DNA of 5,713 nt from Candidatus Jordarchaeales archaeon (GTDB lineage: Archaea; Asgardarchaeota; Jordiarchaeia; Jordiarchaeales; Freyrarchaeaceae). Positions 1-5,713 of this stretch are shown here, one piece after another. Each line of letters starts with the position of its first letter. Position 1 is the first letter of the stretch. The stretch is taken from positions 1-5,713 of the forward strand of contig JAWAHN010000006.1 of the NCBI GenBank assembly GCA_038889235.1, in the 5' to 3' direction. Below the pieces are notes generated by a model that searched no databases, was not told the origin of the DNA, and saw only the letters and a program-made list of their open reading frames with translations. The translations under genes were made by a program, and so were the position numbers.

Positions 1-151
1 CCTCAGACTTAAGCCACACACCCCTCACAAACTCAATCTCCATAGCACTTAAGCCAAGCTCCCTAACCACTCTAACACCCCTCACTACCCCGGAACCCTT
101 AGCAGATAAAGGAATGCCTGCAGGACCAACAAACAAACCACCAAGACCCAA
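1..151 (-). CDS. Endonuclease IV-like TIM-barrel protein, N-terminal part (runs off left edge)
   Basis: Only about the first 50 residues are present. The reading frame gives GPAGIPLSAKG, then VRELGLSAMEIEFVRGV. As I recall it, this is the N-terminal signature of archaeal endonuclease IV / apurinic endonuclease family 2 proteins: first TIM-barrel strand, then the 'LGLdAMEveFVRGV' helix-strand. These enzymes cut DNA at abasic sites in base-excision repair, but the metal-binding His/Glu/Asp residues lie outside the window, so activity is not shown. The start is uncertain. I chose TTG at 149-151 because a GGTGG Shine-Dalgarno-like motif (157-161) sits 5 nt upstream. GTG codons at 158-163 and TTG at 134-136 are alternatives. 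It lies downstream of the tRNA half on the same strand, separated from it by a T-rich stretch. Family membership is recognised from memory of the motif, not from a search. Confidence 0.75.
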   Translation of the reverse strand, partial: MGLGGLFVGPAGIPLSAKGSGVVRGVRVVRELGLSAMEIEFVRGVWLKSE

Positions 152-194: not shown

Positions 195-221
195 AAAACA
201 GACAGAAAATAAGAAAACAAA
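195..221 (-). terminator. T-rich end downstream of the tRNA-Met half
   Basis: Read on the minus strand, the stretch just after the CCA end is made of repeated T runs (TTTG, TTTTC, TTATTTTC, TTTTG). Archaeal RNA polymerase commonly terminates at such T-rich tracts. It separates the tRNA half from the endonuclease IV-like gene and leaves no room for a tRNA 5' half in between. Confidence 0.5.
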
Positions 222-222
222 G

Positions 223-284
223 TGGTAGCGGGGGGTGGATTTGAACCACCGACCTCGGGGTCTCACACGACCCTCAGTAGACCC
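223..284 (-). tRNA. 3' half of initiator tRNA-Met, probable split (trans-spliced) half gene
   Basis: From 261 down to 223 the minus strand reads as a perfect tRNA 3' half. Position 38 is A261. The 3' anticodon stem is CCCCG (256-260), the variable loop AGGTC (251-255), and the T-arm GGTGG-TTCAAAT-CCACC (234-250). The acceptor 3' strand is CCCCGCT (227-233), the discriminator A is 226, and CCA is 223-225. An acceptor 5' strand AGCGGGG with A1:U72 and a CCC-containing anticodon stem are hallmarks of archaeal initiator tRNA. No AGCGGGG 5' half, D-arm or CAU anticodon lies on either side; the leader (262-284) runs straight back into a promoter. The predicted transcript starts near 284 with GGGTCTACTGAGGG, a G-rich leader like those that pair with the partner half in split tRNAs. 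A permuted gene with a distant 5' half, or a dead fragment, are the alternatives. Confidence 0.75.
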
Positions 285-306
285 ATAAATCCTAAAACAA
301 CCACAC

Positions 307-321
307 CTTATAAAGTTTTCG
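307..321 (-). promoter_or_regulatory. BRE/TATA promoter of the tRNA-Met half
   Basis: On the minus strand CGAAAA (316-321, BRE) is followed directly by CTTTATAAG (307-315, TATA box), close to the archaeal consensus. The TATA centre near 311 is about 27 nt from G284. Transcription would therefore start at the leader of the 3' tRNA half and not upstream of any 5' half. This is the main evidence that the half is a gene of its own. Confidence 0.7.
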
Positions 322-390: not shown

Positions 391-468
391 GGGCCCGTAG
401 CCCAGCCAGGATAGGGCGCCGGCCTCCGGAGCCGGAGGTCCCGGGTTCAAATCCCGGCGGGCCCGCCA
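391..468 (+). tRNA. tRNA-Arg (anticodon CCG), attachment site of the element
   Basis: This is a complete cloverleaf. The acceptor is GGGCCCG (391-397) with CGGGCCC (458-464). The D-stem is GCCC (400-403) with GGGC (414-417). The anticodon stem is CCGGC (419-423) with GCCGG (431-435), around loop CTCCGGA with anticodon CCG at 426-428, reading codon CGG. The variable loop is 436-440. The T-stem is CCGGG/CCCGG around TTCAAAT. The discriminator is G465 and CCA (466-468) is encoded. There is no intron. The part from the anticodon loop to CCA is duplicated at 4579-4624, so a tyrosine recombinase has integrated here and its element supplied the present 3' end, leaving the tRNA intact. Confidence 0.97.
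424..468 (+). repeat. attL core (3' part of tRNA-Arg)
   Basis: This 45-nt segment runs from the anticodon loop through the T-arm to CCA and is repeated at 4579-4624. Aligned, the copies differ by G434 to A, one extra C in the attR variable/T-stem junction, and C464 to T. The T-arm block CCGGGTTCAAATCCCGG is identical. Confidence 0.9.
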
Positions 469-518
469 GTCTTCAATCACTCAAGTAAAAAAGCTTAATT
501 AACTTTCTCGATATCACA

Positions 519-541
519 GTTTCATTGTACAGACTGAAACA
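519..541. promoter_or_regulatory. Inverted repeat near attL (arm-type site or integrase operator)
   Basis: GTTTCA (519-524) and TGAAAC (535-540) form an inverted pair with a 10-nt spacer. The right arm belongs to the octamer CTGAAACA (534-541), which recurs exactly three times near attR. A weak TATA-like CTTAATTAAC at about 493-502 would place transcription start of the integrase fragment near 523. The site could therefore serve recombination, autoregulation, or both. Protein binding is inferred. Confidence 0.5.
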
Positions 542-576
542 TCAAGTGTGATAGCTTTGGGCAATAGTAGTTCTGA

Positions 577-1068
577 GTGGTGAGGAATGTAGACGTTTCA
601 AAGCTAGACGAAGACTCTCGCTACAAGGTTCTCTACTATCTTGTCGAAAAATGTGAGAGAAAGAAGGTGGTGGAAGAAGTCGGGATCAGCCGTGTAACAC
701 TATGGGGATTATTGAGACGGGAGTTTCCCGTTAAGCCAGAGTACATAGCCCCGCTACTACAGTTACTCATACCAAACGAGTTCAAGAGTCTAGTGTCTGT
801 AGGAAATAGGCTTAGGCCACTTGGTATATCAAGGGATGACGAAACAGTAGACTACAGCTTAATCTTAGAGATAGTGAGTATAGCGAGAAGCGATGAGTAC
901 CTCAAGAACGCTATACTAAGGTTCGTCGTCCAAGAGTTTAAGGAAGATATTAGAAAAATGCTAGAGGAAAATAACAGAAAACCGCAACTAATTAATGAGT
1001 CGGTATTTAAAATTGGTAAGTTAGTAGTAATCCTACAGAAAATTAAGGTAGAAGATGAGCACTTCTAA
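577..1068 (+). CDS. Truncated tyrosine integrase, N-terminal domain only
   Basis: The 163-residue protein has a helix-turn-helix-like segment at about 24-48 (VEEVGISRVTLWGLLRR). A region at 78-130 follows, with RLRPLGISRDDETVDYSL, then SDEYLKNAILRFVVQEF. I recognise this pattern from the N-terminal part of integrases of crenarchaeal integrated plasmids and conjugative elements; the attribution is from memory. Full-length relatives are roughly twice as long and carry the catalytic R...HxxR...Y domain; none of those residues is present. Near the end, QKIKVEDEHF resembles the junction leading into the core-binding domain, then a stop follows, which suggests a deletion. Starts GTG 577 and GTG 580 are adjacent and equivalent. 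Its position, pointing inward just after attL, supports the assignment. It could persist as an attachment-site binding protein or be a remnant. Confidence 0.65.
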   Translation: MVRNVDVSKLDEDSRYKVLYYLVEKCERKKVVEEVGISRVTLWGLLRREFPVKPEYIAPLLQLLIPNEFKSLVSVGNRLRPLGISRDDETVDYSLILEIVSIARSDEYLKNAILRFVVQEFKEDIRKMLEENNRKPQLINESVFKIGKLVVILQKIKVEDEHF

Positions 1069-1096
1069 ATCCAACCAATAATATTAATAAGAGTTT

Positions 1097-1121
1097 AACT
1101 CAATAATTTGAGAGTTGAGTT
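1097..1121. terminator. Hairpin between convergent genes
   Basis: AACTCAA (1097-1103) and TTGAGTT (1115-1121) form a perfect 7-bp stem with an 11-nt loop. It lies exactly between the stop of the integrase fragment and the stop of the CofE-like gene, and it touches the latter's stop codon. The position suggests a transcript-end structure, but there is no strong T run after it. Confidence 0.35.
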
Positions 1122-2062
1122 TACAGCTTCTTCTCCCCATTCTTGTAGCCTTTTAATGTAAGCATAGGCTTGCTCATCATTGAGGGACCTAGAACGATTA
1201 TTGTATGCTTAACTGTTTCCAAAAGAGCCTTAAGTAGCATTTTTAGAGACATCCTCGTAACTAGCACCTTGTTTATTCCTTCATTAGACCATTCATACTT
1301 TAGGCCTCTGATGATTACTACGGGTATCCCTTCACCCCTCTGCCCCATTAGTAGGGCTGCTGCTGAGCTAACCATGAAGGCTATGTTATCTACGCCCCCA
1401 AACTTTGGCTTCCCATAGGAGTCTGGTTCTCCAAACTCCATCTTCGTGGGCTTTATCCCGTACGATCCTCTCGCAACATCCATAGCCCCCCATGGGAAGA
1501 GCTCCGTATCAGAAATAACGACCGCAACTCTCTTTCTAATCCTCCTAAATATCTCTTCAGAAATCTGCTTAGCAATCTCATCGAGGTTTCTTGGAGGGAT
1601 AGAGTATACTCCATGAGGGTGATTTGATGTATCTATACCAGATTCGCTCCACAGCATCCCATCCCTAATAGTCAAAAATATTGTCGGATAGAACTCTAAA
1701 GCTTTTATCGCTTTAGATGGCTCTTTAGAGAGAAAACGTACATCTATAATTCCTCTTTCAATAAGTTTCTTGAACGGTATTGATACAACAATCCTATCAC
1801 TTTCGCGAAGAAGGAGTTCAACAAATCTTGGATCCGAGCTAGCTCTGCGCGCAATCTTATATGCTTTCCTAGAGGGCTTAACATCCTCGATGTTAACTAG
1901 AAGACCGAGGGCCTTAGATAAAACCTTACTAGCTATCACCAATACATCATAGTCTTGGAGTCCAATACCATCAACACTAGCAGCCTTTAAAACCACTTCA
2001 ACTAGGTCATCGCCCGGACGAATTTCAGGAAGCCTCAAACCAAACAACTCAACCTTCAACAT
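1121..2062 (-). CDS. cofE: CofE-like protein (coenzyme F420-0:L-glutamate ligase family)
   Basis: CofE adds gamma-linked glutamates to coenzyme F420-0 using GTP. From the first codon of the longer frame (TTG at 2068), family landmarks are YDVLVIASKVLSKALG at 40-55, SGIDTSN at 143-149, VVISDTELFPWG at 183-194 followed by MDVARGSYG, and KFGGVDNIAFMVSSAAALLMGQRGEG at 222-247. These match the CofE order ASK..SKaeG, aGIDxSN, SDTfGrPWR. Differences are the usual LPxDPD-type segment after GIDxSN, here IPPRNLDE, and a C-terminal extension beyond about residue 260 (the protein is about 313 aa against about 250 aa in typical CofE). Substrate may differ. I chose ATG at 2060-2062; a TTG two codons upstream is better spaced (5 nt) from GAGGT (2074-2078). 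It follows the small protein at 2077 by about 14 nt, so they are probably co-transcribed. It sits inside the integrated element as apparent cargo. Confidence 0.8.
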   Translation of the reverse strand: MLKVELFGLRLPEIRPGDDLVEVVLKAASVDGIGLQDYDVLVIASKVLSKALGLLVNIEDVKPSRKAYKIARRASSDPRFVELLLRESDRIVVSIPFKKLIERGIIDVRFLSKEPSKAIKALEFYPTIFLTIRDGMLWSESGIDTSNHPHGVYSIPPRNLDEIAKQISEEIFRRIRKRVAVVISDTELFPWGAMDVARGSYGIKPTKMEFGEPDSYGKPKFGGVDNIAFMVSSAAALLMGQRGEGIPVVIIRGLKYEWSNEGINKVLVTRMSLKMLLKALLETVKHTIIVLGPSMMSKPMLTLKGYKNGEKKL

Positions 2063-2076
2063 ATTCAATCAAGACC

Positions 2077-2403
2077 TCAATAGTGCAAGCTCCTAGTCCT
2101 ACCTGAGTAGTGTAAGACCTTGACTTCATTTTCGGCTAATAGCCTCTCTATGGCTGGGAGGAGCTCGCTAAGCCCATTGAAGAAGTATGGTTCAGAAGGC
2201 TTCAACCCGCGACTTTCATTGGCTAGTAAGCGCACGGTCCTAATGTCCCAGCAAACTCTTGGGACAACCTTCCCCTTTTCGCTGGCTATGCCATCTGTGA
2301 AGAAGGCGATCCTGAGCTCTATCATTCTCTCACCACGCTTAGCTTCGACCTCACTCCTCTCCCTCCTAAGCCTCTCCTTCAAATCAGTAAGCACAAATGA
2401 CAC
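2077..2403 (-). CDS. Conserved hypothetical protein upstream of the CofE-like gene
   Basis: The 108-residue frame has a charged N-terminal helix (about 7-26, LKERLRRERSEVEAKRGER). A compact region follows: MIELRIAFFTDGIA, GKVVPRVCWDIRTVRLLANESRG, and FFNGLSELLPAIERLLAENEVKVL. I recall similar short archaeal proteins of the form ELRIRFWTDxIA...GKxVPKxxW...N...FNSLxxLxxAIExxL. No function is known to me and I name no family. The upstream start is GTG 2403, with a TATA-like TTAATAAT 25-32 nt before it that would give a leaderless transcript. ATG 2323-2325 with a GGTGAG Shine-Dalgarno is the alternative and gives 82 residues beginning at the conserved part. Its stop overlaps the Shine-Dalgarno of the CofE-like gene. 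Confidence 0.65.
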   Translation of the reverse strand: MSFVLTDLKERLRRERSEVEAKRGERMIELRIAFFTDGIASEKGKVVPRVCWDIRTVRLLANESRGLKPSEPYFFNGLSELLPAIERLLAENEVKVLHYSGRTRSLHY

Positions 2404-2427
2404 CCGTTTAGTAGCTTATTTCCAGAG

Positions 2428-2435
2428 ATTATTAA
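2428..2435 (-). promoter_or_regulatory. Candidate TATA box of the hypothetical/CofE-like pair
   Basis: TTAATAAT on the minus strand lies 25-32 nt upstream of GTG 2403, the spacing of a leaderless archaeal gene. No clear BRE precedes it. Confidence 0.35.
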
Positions 2436-2439
2436 CGTT

Positions 2440-2770
2440 TATCCTTACCAGTCTGTAAGCAAGCCGAGCCATGATGTTAACGCTTACGCATAATCATAGC
2501 CCTTCCGGGAGTCGTGCCCAAATTTGAGTATGAAGAAGCAGTGGCTGAGATTCGAAGAGACCACCACGATCTTTAGATTATCCCCCACACAGCTCCAGCT
2601 CAGCTCCGGCTCTGCAAGCACACTAGCGGAGGAGGCTCCTATGTCGAGAGATCCCCCCGTCTTTAGCTCCTTGGTCGTCCGATAATGAAGCCTGCGTAAA
2701 ACCAAAGACGGGTTTGTGTGAAGATGTGTGTGCAGACGCCCCCGCAGAGGTGCGGAAAAGTGAAGAGTAA
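2440..2770. other. No supported gene; GC-rich island
   Basis: Several frames are open for short stretches on both strands but none has a start with a ribosome-binding site or a recognisable domain. The 2575-2750 part is richer in G and C than its surroundings and has hairpin potential, such as AGGAG-G-CTCCT around 2633. One plus-strand frame ends with GGGSYVERSPRL and a stop, which vaguely recalls the C-terminal tails of TnpB transposases; that is too weak to annotate. Confidence 0.4.
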
Positions 2771-2793
2771 AAATTTAATGTATTTTAGTATGA
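2771..2793 (+). repeat. 23-bp direct repeat, copy 1
   Basis: This matches 5306-5328 at 21 of 23 positions in the same orientation. The shared part is TTAATG-N-ATTTTAGTATGA. This copy lies inside the element; the other lies outside attR. Confidence 0.5.
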
Positions 2794-2854
2794 ATTTAGT
2801 CTGACGAGTATGTACTAGTGGATAACCGATCTTGTTAATGCTGATACAAAAGCC

Positions 2855-3004
2855 ATGGGAGTCTACTTAACGCTTCTTTACTTGAGAGTTGAAAAGGATT
2901 ATACTTCATATAGTGGAAAGCCGTCTGCTAGTGAAATATTACAGGAGGACAGAATAAGGGGTTTGGGTTTCATGTCGTTTGATATTGACCCTTGGCTTCA
3001 TTGA
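2855..3004 (+). other. Short ORF of unknown origin (49 aa), probable remnant
   Basis: The frame is open from 2819 and has an ATG at 2855 with no ribosome-binding site. It encodes a hydrophobic then charged segment (VYLTLLYLRVEKDYTSYSG, then SASEILQEDRIRG). Its composition looks protein-like, but nothing is recognisable and it ends abruptly at the GC-rich island. It is more likely a fragment of a broken element gene than a working gene. Confidence 0.25.
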
Positions 3005-3096
3005 CCTCAGGCCTCCTTTCATTGAAGGTCTTATCATTAGTCTCCACTCTTTCAGGGTAACCCCAACTCACAGCTCACCCTCATTTGGCTCACAGC

Positions 3097-3114
3097 TGTG
3101 GGGAAACCCCCACA
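3097..3114. other. Strong GC hairpin in a GC-rich island (about 2985-3185)
   Basis: TGTGGGG (3097-3103) and CCCCACA (3108-3114) form a perfect 7-bp stem closed by AAAC. The surrounding 200 bp is C-rich on the plus strand, unlike the AT-rich flanks. The minus strand reads through protein-like but stop-interrupted frames, including WGFPHSCEPNEGEL, a stop, then LKEWRLMIRPSMKGGLRSM. The island may be a decayed coding tail (possibly a TnpB-like C-terminus) or a structured RNA. Neither is proven. Confidence 0.4.
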
Positions 3115-3185
3115 TCCTGGCTTTAGATACCCTACCCACTCGAGTCTTCACTACGCACCCACATCGTGAGCAGGCTCAACCCACA

Positions 3186-3558
3186 ATAAAGTATCAACTC
3201 CTTATAAACCTTTATGAAACCCGAAACAGTTGCACTAGGCAATTGCTTGCTAAATATTTTGCCGGAAGAGGCGTTGATGCAAGAGAGGCTATTAGTGCTG
3301 GAACTACATTTATAGATAGACTTTTCGAAGATAAAGGTACTAAGTCTCGGCGATAGGAATAAAATTCTTGGTGATTGGGAGGTAGAGTTTATTGAAAAGT
3401 TTGCAAAAGCATTTAAGAAATATCTTAGGCTTGATATCATTCCGAAAGAGCTAGTAGAAGCATCATGTGAAGTGCTTCTTGATATTCGAAGCCATCTTTA
3501 CATTGATTACTTGCAAAATTTTAAATTTAAAGCTACGTTAAATACTCGCCTTCAGTAA
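3186..3558 (+). pseudogene. Broken reading frame of unknown function
   Basis: Frame A, open to 3356, encodes LLAKYFAGRGVDAREAISAG, then FIDRLFEDK. Just after FIDRLFED, an AAA run at 3332-3334 allows a one-base shift into a second frame. This frame is open to the stop at 3556-3558 and encodes VLSLGDRNKILGDWEVEF, EKFAKAFKKYLRLDIIPKE, and ASCEVLLDIRSHLYIDYLQ. Joined, they give an all-helical-looking basic/acidic protein of about 120 residues. Alternatively the second frame starts at ATG 3214 (MKPETVALGNCLLNILPEEA) and is interrupted by a single in-frame TAG at 3313-3315. Either way one lesion separates two coding-like halves. I recognise no family. The start is approximate, and no promoter at the right distance from ATG 3214 is visible. 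Confidence 0.5.
3213..3229 (-). repeat. 17-bp inverted repeat, copy 1
   Basis: The minus strand reads CTGTTTCGGGTTTCATA, identical to 5102-5118 on the plus strand. This copy is inside the element and the other is outside. Neighbouring sequence does not align beyond the 17 bp by eye. Confidence 0.55.
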
Positions 3559-3583
3559 AAACATGACAACGATTTAAATCACT

Positions 3584-3706
3584 ATGAATAAGAAGCCTCA
3601 GAGAGCTGGGGAAGCCAAGCCAGAAACTATTAGAGAGGTAGCAGAGGAGAACGGAGTGCTACACTACGGAGCGGTAAGCTTGATAAGCCTGTCAAGCCTA
3701 TTTTAA
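3584..3706 (+). CDS. Small ORF of unknown function (40 aa), uncertain
   Basis: It starts at ATG 3584 after GATTTAAATCACT and encodes MNKKPQRAGEAKPETIREV, then AEENGVLHYGAVSLI. The lysine/glutamate-rich N-terminus looks coding. There is no Shine-Dalgarno, no correctly spaced TATA box and no recognisable domain. It lies between the broken frame and the C/D box sRNA. It may be a truncated element gene. Confidence 0.25.
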   Translation: MNKKPQRAGEAKPETIREVAEENGVLHYGAVSLISLSSLF

Positions 3707-3721
3707 CAAATCAAGTAGCTA

Positions 3722-3771
3722 GTGATGAGCGCTCGGGTTGACTGTAGGATGATGACGGTCTTGAGTTCTGA
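3722..3771 (+). ncRNA. C/D box sRNA (2'-O-methylation guide)
   Basis: All four boxes occur in order with archaeal spacing. C box GTGATGA is 3722-3728, followed by a 13-nt guide (3729-3741). D' box CTGT is 3742-3745 (one change from CTGA), followed by a 4-nt spacer. C' box TGATGA is 3750-3755, followed by a 12-nt guide (3756-3767). D box CTGA is 3768-3771. Such RNAs assemble with L7Ae, Nop5 and fibrillarin and direct methylation of the target base paired to the fifth guide nucleotide upstream of D or D'. The predicted target segments are UCAACCCGAGCGC (D' guide, methylating the fifth base) and AACUCAAGACCG (D guide, fifth base). I cannot place these in rRNA or tRNA from memory. A TATA-like TATTTTAAC (about 3699-3707) lies upstream. 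The terminal stem is weak, as is common in archaea. Confidence 0.75.
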
Positions 3772-4476
3772 GCCTATCACCTACATGATCATTGATGAGC
3801 CGAATGTTTTCCTCAGTACTCTCAATAATTTGTAATTGCGTTTCTTATCTCTACTTTATGAACAGCTATATCCACGTAAATAACGATTATTAGCGCAAAA
3901 TATTGCGTATACGTTGCAATTGTTAGTGGGGTAGTTCTTGCTGTAGCATTCTTTATTCAAGAGATGGGTCATAGAAGTTGAATTCGAAATCACCTCAAGG
4001 TATTTCTAGTATCTTATCTTTTAAGAAGACCTATTTAGAGCTGGGAAAAGGCCAACGATACGTTAGCAATAGTGTTTAACTACTCTCCTCTGTGGTCTAC
4101 AATTTTTAGGACTGGTATTCTCCTAAGGGGAATGCAGCAACATTGTTTTAGAGCTAAGCCTATTACTATAGTCTCAATTACTTTTAGGTTGTGCACTATG
4201 TTTTTAAAGTACGTAGTCTCTAATGCTTACTTCGTCAAAAGTGCTTCGGCAACTTAAGCTTTAACAACGTTTTTCAGTACGTTGTATAGAGTTTTCTTCT
4301 TACCTCATGTCTTGAAGGAAGAGATTTTTTAGCTATGACGATTGTTTTACGCATTTCATTGCTTAAGACTTACTCTACGGGTACGTACGCCTGGATTGTT
4401 ACGCTTCACTATATGCGTAACGACTTTAAGTAACTGGCTCGAAGCTCCATACCTGGTATTCATTAGTCAGCCTTAA
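3772..4476. other. No supported gene; decayed interior of the element
   Basis: About 700 bp of AT-rich sequence has frequent stops in all frames. The longest plus-strand frame (4072-4257) has no ribosome-binding site, odd composition (many Phe, Thr, Ile, Cys) and no recognisable domain, so I leave it out. The one structured spot is the inverted repeat at 4398-4421. Confidence 0.55.
4398..4421. repeat. Inverted repeat GTTACGC-N10-GCGTAAC
   Basis: Two perfect 7-bp arms (4398-4404 and 4415-4421) surround a 10-nt spacer, about 160 bp inside attR. The geometry suits a dimeric repressor site or a small hairpin. No adjacent gene tells which. Confidence 0.4.
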
Positions 4477-4558
4477 TGTTTCAGTTTTCAAAGAGGAAAA
4501 GCATCATCCGCCTTCAGCTATGCATTGATGTTTCAGTTTTATGTAGTTTGCTGAAACA
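4477..4558. promoter_or_regulatory. Octamer cluster near attR (putative recombinase arm sites)
   Basis: TGTTTCAG occurs at 4477-4484 and 4529-4536, and its complement CTGAAACA at 4551-4558. The last two form an inverted pair with a 14-nt spacer, 20 nt from the attR core. The first two copies share a longer direct repeat, ATGTTTCAGTTTT. The fourth exact copy in the window is at 534-541 near attL. In the circular form these would flank the core on both sides, as arm-type sites of tyrosine integrases do. The function is inferred. Confidence 0.55.
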
Positions 4559-4578
4559 GATCTACGGGTGCCCCAGGA

Positions 4579-4624
4579 CTCCGGAGCCAGAGGTCCCCGG
4601 GTTCAAATCCCGGCGGGCCTGCCA
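4579..4624 (+). repeat. attR: displaced 3' end of tRNA-Arg
   Basis: This is a direct repeat of tRNA-Arg positions 424-468, from CTCCGGAGCC to GCCA. It carries G to A at 4589, one extra C in the run 4595-4598, and C to T at 4620. The T-arm is unchanged. No 5' half precedes it, so it is not a tRNA gene but the original chromosomal 3' end pushed away by integration. Confidence 0.9.
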
Positions 4625-5525: not shown

Positions 5526-5713
5526 ATGAGGGGTGAGGCTTTAAGATGGTTTAATGAGGCTTTGTGGGATCTTGATACAGCCAAAATTCTATATAGGGAG
5601 AGGAGATTTAATGCGGCTGCATTCTACTCTCACCAAGCAGCTGAAAAGGCTTGTAAGGCGCTTCTCTACAATGTTAATGAGGCTCCATGGGGGCATAGTG
5701 TTAGGGAGCTCCT
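5526..5713 (+). CDS. HEPN-domain protein, N-terminal part (runs off right edge)
   Basis: The first 63 residues are present. They show the N-terminal helices of a HEPN domain: WFNEALWDLDTAKILYRERR (8-27), FNAAAFYSHQAAEKACKALL (28-47) and WGHSVREL (55-62). The SHQAAEKAxKALL helix is the family signature. Stand-alone archaeal HEPN proteins often pair with a MNT nucleotidyltransferase as toxin and antitoxin, and many act as RNases through a C-terminal RxxxxH motif. That region and any partner lie outside the window. ATG 5526 is preceded by GGTGAG (5514-5519) with 6-nt spacing. A five-codon frame (GTG GTG AGT ACT AAA TGA) overlaps the start codon. The gene lies outside the element. Confidence 0.85.
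   Translation, partial: MRGEALRWFNEALWDLDTAKILYRERRFNAAAFYSHQAAEKACKALLYNVNEAPWGHSVREL

Follow-up and report, generated by a model that had tools for sequence, protein, structure and literature searches.

The initiator tRNA (tRNA-iMet) starts every protein. In a published survey it was split in one organism only, Nanoarchaeum equitans, and permuted in one, and the split 3' half of N. equitans is about 52/36 nt (PMC3218864). In N. equitans, the promoters of the tRNA halves carry TTTAAA 26 nt upstream of the start (PMC3491384). The permuted iMet gene of Thermofilum pendens is broken at 59/60, with the 5' part lying 7 nt downstream. A tRNA piece does not have to belong to a split gene: in Caldiarchaeum, a stray fragment of tRNA-Thr lies near a mobile element and a complete gene is also present (PMC3293823).

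Here we describe an isolated iMet 3' half on a contig (C6) binned with an Asgard-like genome. The stretch of DNA analysed, called the window below, is the whole of this contig, 5.7 kb. On the minus strand, at 261-223, it carries the 39-nt sequence ACCCCGAGGTCGGTGGTTCAAATCCACCCCCCGCTACCA, which corresponds to positions 38-73 plus CCA of an initiator-type tRNA. We see about an even chance that this element encodes the 3' half of a trans-spliced tRNA-iMet in the archaeon from which the contig comes. The features of the window are the following.

2-136, minus strand: 5' part of an endonuclease-IV-like gene (nfo), truncated where the contig stops and named from sequence resemblance
205-222, minus strand: pyrimidine/T-rich stretch after the CCA, a possible terminator judged from its composition
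223-261, minus strand: tRNA-iMet 3' half, consisting of A38, anticodon 3' strand CCCCG, variable loop AGGTC, T-arm GGTGG-TTCAAAT-CCACC, acceptor CCCCGCT, discriminator A and CCA
262-284, minus strand: predicted leader GGGUCUACUGAGGGUCGUGUGAG, 23 nt, ending in an intron-3'-end-like strand, UGUG-AG^A
307-320, minus strand: predicted BRE/TATA GAAAACTTTATAAG, 1 mismatch to the textbook consensus RNWAAWTTTAWANR
391-468, plus strand: intact tRNA-Arg(CCG), a divergent neighbour 130 bp from the iMet half
577-1068, plus strand: 163-aa ORF beside the tRNA-Arg
1121-2068, minus strand: F420-0:glutamate ligase-like protein (PF01996)
3719-3772, plus strand: C/D-box sRNA-like stretch (GTGATGA ... ATGATGA ... 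CTGA), sR5-like at 22.5 bits, under the Rfam cut-off of 40
4576-4624, plus strand: decayed tRNA-Arg 3'-half copy starting at the anticodon loop, a presumed att remnant of an integrated element
5526-5711, plus strand: start of a HEPN-domain protein, cut by the contig end

The half matches the window exactly once and was found in 0 of 200 shuffles. It begins exactly at the 37/38 junction, a splice-position boundary, and its structure is intact, without any departure from the iMet consensus, while the tRNA-Arg remnant nearby shows 4 differences when compared with its gene. The original prediction, a perfect initiator-type 3' half on the minus strand followed by a T-rich end, is borne out by these observations. 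The 24-nt T-arm/acceptor part is also present in 7 other genomes of the phylum, always within complete iMet genes, and the half unit itself was absent from all other genomes searched. ARAGORN called only the tRNA-Arg(CCG) in the window and left the iMet half uncalled. A full-length tRNA covariance model gave the half 16.3 bits, similar to what genome stretches with nothing but a T-arm obtain, which indicates that the upstream sequence is no hidden 5' half and that nothing tRNA-like precedes the half. An intact but degenerate tRNA could thus be ruled out, since including the upstream part hardly improves the covariance match.

The near-consensus BRE/TATA that had been proposed about 27 nt before the leader was recovered with proper spacing. 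When both strands were compared, GAAAACTTTATAAG (320-307, minus) was the top BRE/TATA of the intergenic region, and among dinucleotide shuffles of the upstream flank, 0.75% had one as good within the zone of proper spacing (P 0.0075). The leader start was placed at 282-285 from the TATA spacing, approximately 26 nt downstream, and the predicted transcript from about 284 begins with GGG and comprises a 23-nt leader and the 39-nt half, 62 nt together. The competing fold between the leader GGGTCT and AGACCC (258-263) was also recovered by fold prediction, in which GGGUC of the leader and GACCC at the start of the exon form a hairpin. The stability of the whole 62-nt fold is not unusual (z -0.42).

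The end of the leader resembles the 3' end of an iMet intron. Nine iMet genes with a 37/38 intron were found in other genomes of the phylum, and all nine introns end in [UG]G[AG]G-AN^A; pairing of these ends with the anticodon-loop CUCA is complete (4/4) in seven and 3/4 in two. The leader end UGUG-AG^A forms three of the four central-helix pairs with CUCA, with an AG^A bulge and one U-U mismatch, and it shares the bulge form AN^A with the nine real introns. The leader end thus fits the relaxed bulge-helix-bulge proposed at 37/38, of which the opposite strand, on the 5' half, was not found; only 2.3% of window positions match the junction fit. The shared bulge form, the three pairs and the low background suggest that a canonical iMet intron lies behind the leader, which would be its 3' part or a descendant of it.

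If the iMet gene is split, its own TATA would drive the 62-nt RNA, and a separately encoded 5' half would provide the trailer with which the leader pairs. Such a 5' half is expected to consist of AGCGGGG, a D arm and CGGGGCTCATA, and its trailer to show complementarity to GGGUCUACUGAGGGUCG and GGGUCUACUGAGGGUCGUG. Once the splicing endonuclease had cleaved the relaxed bulge-helix-bulge, in which UGUG-AG^A faces CUCA, positions 37 and 38 would be joined by a ligase. The likeness to the split iMet of N. equitans extends to the same tRNA, the 37/38 junction, a separate 3' half, a G-rich leader and a TATA about 26 nt upstream (PMC3218864, PMC3491384), and the anatomy of about 62/39 nt matches published split 3' halves, including that of N. 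equitans (PMC3218864). In contrast to N. equitans, the 5' half was not found here, the central helix has one mismatch and the leader is partly self-complementary. That a working split iMet exists in an uncultured archaeon outside Nanoarchaeota, apparently derived from an intron-containing gene by separation within the canonical intron, is a proposal to which we give a shade less than an even chance.

The search for the 5' half gave a mixed outcome for the prediction. No 5' half is present in the window, as had been claimed, but the literal AGCGGGG is not missing: it occurs once, at 755-749 on the minus strand, and has neither a D-arm nor CTCATA. A gene with a long intron within the window was ruled out by the missing 5' half upstream. 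As in T. pendens, the 3' part of the same tRNA stands without a preceding 5' part, but the break here is at 37/38 and no 5' half follows within the 222 nt available downstream, which rules out a permuted gene. In the assembly (G000, 2.14 Mb in 8 contigs) no separate 5' half was detected either. Of the matches to the loose pattern GCGGGG...CTCATA, one is tRNA-like, namely an intact iMet gene on another contig (C5:19305), AGCGGGGTAGGGTAGTCAGGAGATCCCGCGGGGCTCATAACCCCGAGATCGGTGGTTCAAA-[intron]-TCCACCCCCCGCTA, and three others lack tRNA structure. The exon sequence of this gene is nearly identical in genomes of the same genus. Its intron lies in the T loop (59/60 region) and CCA is not encoded (L096, L129); one same-genus iMet gene (L122) has its intron in the variable-loop region instead. 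The assembly gave just 12 tRNA matches above the Rfam cut-off, and many of its tRNA genes are broken by introns at several positions. The original prediction had held that an intact iMet gene elsewhere in the genome, or the lack of a matching 5' half, would speak against a split tRNA. The assembly has the one and lacks the other, so by the prediction's own standard a split tRNA is refuted for this assembly, while the isolated half and the predicted promoter still stand and the leader end fits a relaxed junction. However, the contig is probably DNA of another archaeon, and this test may therefore concern the wrong organism.

Several features argue that the contig is foreign to the bin, which has a completeness of 95% and a contamination of 3.27%. 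Its tetranucleotide correlation with the main contigs is 0.34, against 0.61 +/- 0.07 (minimum 0.46) for their own 5.7-kb pieces. The nfo start is 65% identical to the native full-length copy (G000:C1:329167) and represents a second, divergent nfo, although each relative with a match shows only one; the 45-aa fragment alone gave no match in Pfam. The nearest relatives of the F420 ligase belong to another family, at 45-47%, and matches in the genus are only weak; its subfamily has close members in the phylum in family f12 only, at about 45% identity. A search of named genomes with this ligase, aimed at the origin of the contig, gave a single spurious hit. Among the other 226 genomes of the phylum, none has the 163-aa ORF apart from two marginal matches (L162, L163) in stop-filled stretches, beside which no integrase was found. 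The variable loop of the half is AGGTC, and that of the genus AGATC. On these grounds we consider it likely that the contig is foreign, probably misbinned DNA of another archaeon. Should the window and the intact iMet gene belong to one genome after all, the gene with the T-loop intron would supply the iMet and the half would be redundant. The shared assembly and the genus-typical sequence of the intact gene speak for this, but the tetranucleotides, the second nfo, the 163-aa ORF and the variable loop speak against it, and we regard it as unlikely; the weight given to it overlaps with that of a non-functional fragment.

Traces of mobile DNA are present on the same contig. The decayed tRNA-Arg copy lies 4.2 kb downstream of the intact gene and has its 4 differences over 49 columns. 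A 35-nt stretch of the intact gene is carried by an IMG/VR contig of 15,465 bases (L168), which we take to be SSV1, and an integrase-sized ORF overlaps the site. The 163-aa ORF presumably resembles the N-terminal part of Thermoproteales integrases; it had no convincing family match and nothing was found in viral, phage and plasmid collections. The iMet half is absent from IMG/VR. tRNA-Arg(CCG) is the tRNA type whose 3' half SSV1 carries, and the strand-exchange overlap of the SSV1 integrase is the anticodon loop (PMC8371274). The tRNA-Arg copy begins with the anticodon loop, and so does the att site of SSV1; tRNA-targeting elements therefore seem to have been active here, and judging from the two copies the interval from 391 to 4624 probably once held an SSV1-type element.

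The iMet half shares with SSV1-type att remnants that a tRNA 3' half is isolated from its gene, on a contig with another such remnant. Unlike them, it lacks the anticodon-loop overlap and has its own promoter-like element. Only one of seven loop bases agrees (TGTGAGA against CTCATAA), although the tRNA-Arg copy keeps the overlap, and the half is placed on the other side of the tRNA-Arg from the presumed element, on the opposite strand; it is therefore not a remnant of the same kind, and an SSV1-type att remnant was ruled out by the absence of the anticodon loop. Like the Caldiarchaeum tRNA-Thr fragment, it is an isolated piece of a tRNA from an uncultured archaeon, with mobile DNA that targets tRNA genes close by, but that piece is a 5' fragment with a complete tRNA-Thr gene present and ours is a 3' half (PMC3293823). 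In one f12 genome (G027) nfo and a tRNA-Arg are likewise divergent and stand about 168 nt apart, compared to 255 in the window; G020 and G034 have the same neighbourhood. The half unit may be a local insertion between nfo and tRNA-Arg.

The weights given to the readings are judgements, not computed values. A non-functional fragment is a serious possibility, which we place somewhat short of even: the 3' exon of an intron-containing iMet gene that lost its 5' exon and kept its promoter, or a half displaced by a tRNA-targeting element or a rearrangement, with a complete iMet gene elsewhere. In hyperthermophilic archaea, partial tRNA pieces are found more often than split tRNAs (A. pernix has six), the contig itself holds a tRNA-Arg att remnant, canonical 37/38 iMet introns are present in several related genomes, and the wider gap than in the one f12 genome measured fits a local insertion. 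A truncated intron-containing gene with a retained promoter accounts for most features too, and the fold-back of the leader on the exon start and the U-U mismatch in the central helix count against a split gene, as do the lack of a 5' half in window and assembly, the intact iMet gene on C5, the absence of the unit from the other genomes searched and the precedent of the Caldiarchaeum fragment. On the other hand, an SSV1-type remnant should have kept the overlap, as the tRNA-Arg copy did, the half is undecayed, and a well-placed promoter is unexpected for a randomly displaced piece. In a random fragment one would not expect an edge exactly at 37/38 together with a body free of decay, a junction like that of an intron and a promoter at good spacing. 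What weight is left goes to an artefact or other causes. A chimeric metagenome contig in which the 5' exon was lost or scrambled could be suspected from the short contig and the contamination of the bin, but the f12 genomes have a similar divergent nfo/tRNA-Arg neighbourhood, so the flanks of the half resemble real genomes, and we find such an artefact highly improbable.

If the split tRNA-iMet is real, it would be a second, independent split of the initiator tRNA, with a leader still resembling the end of a canonical intron. It would then bear on the question whether split tRNAs are of late origin, through breakage of genes with introns, and on the part played by mobile DNA that targets tRNA genes, traces of which are found on the same contig.
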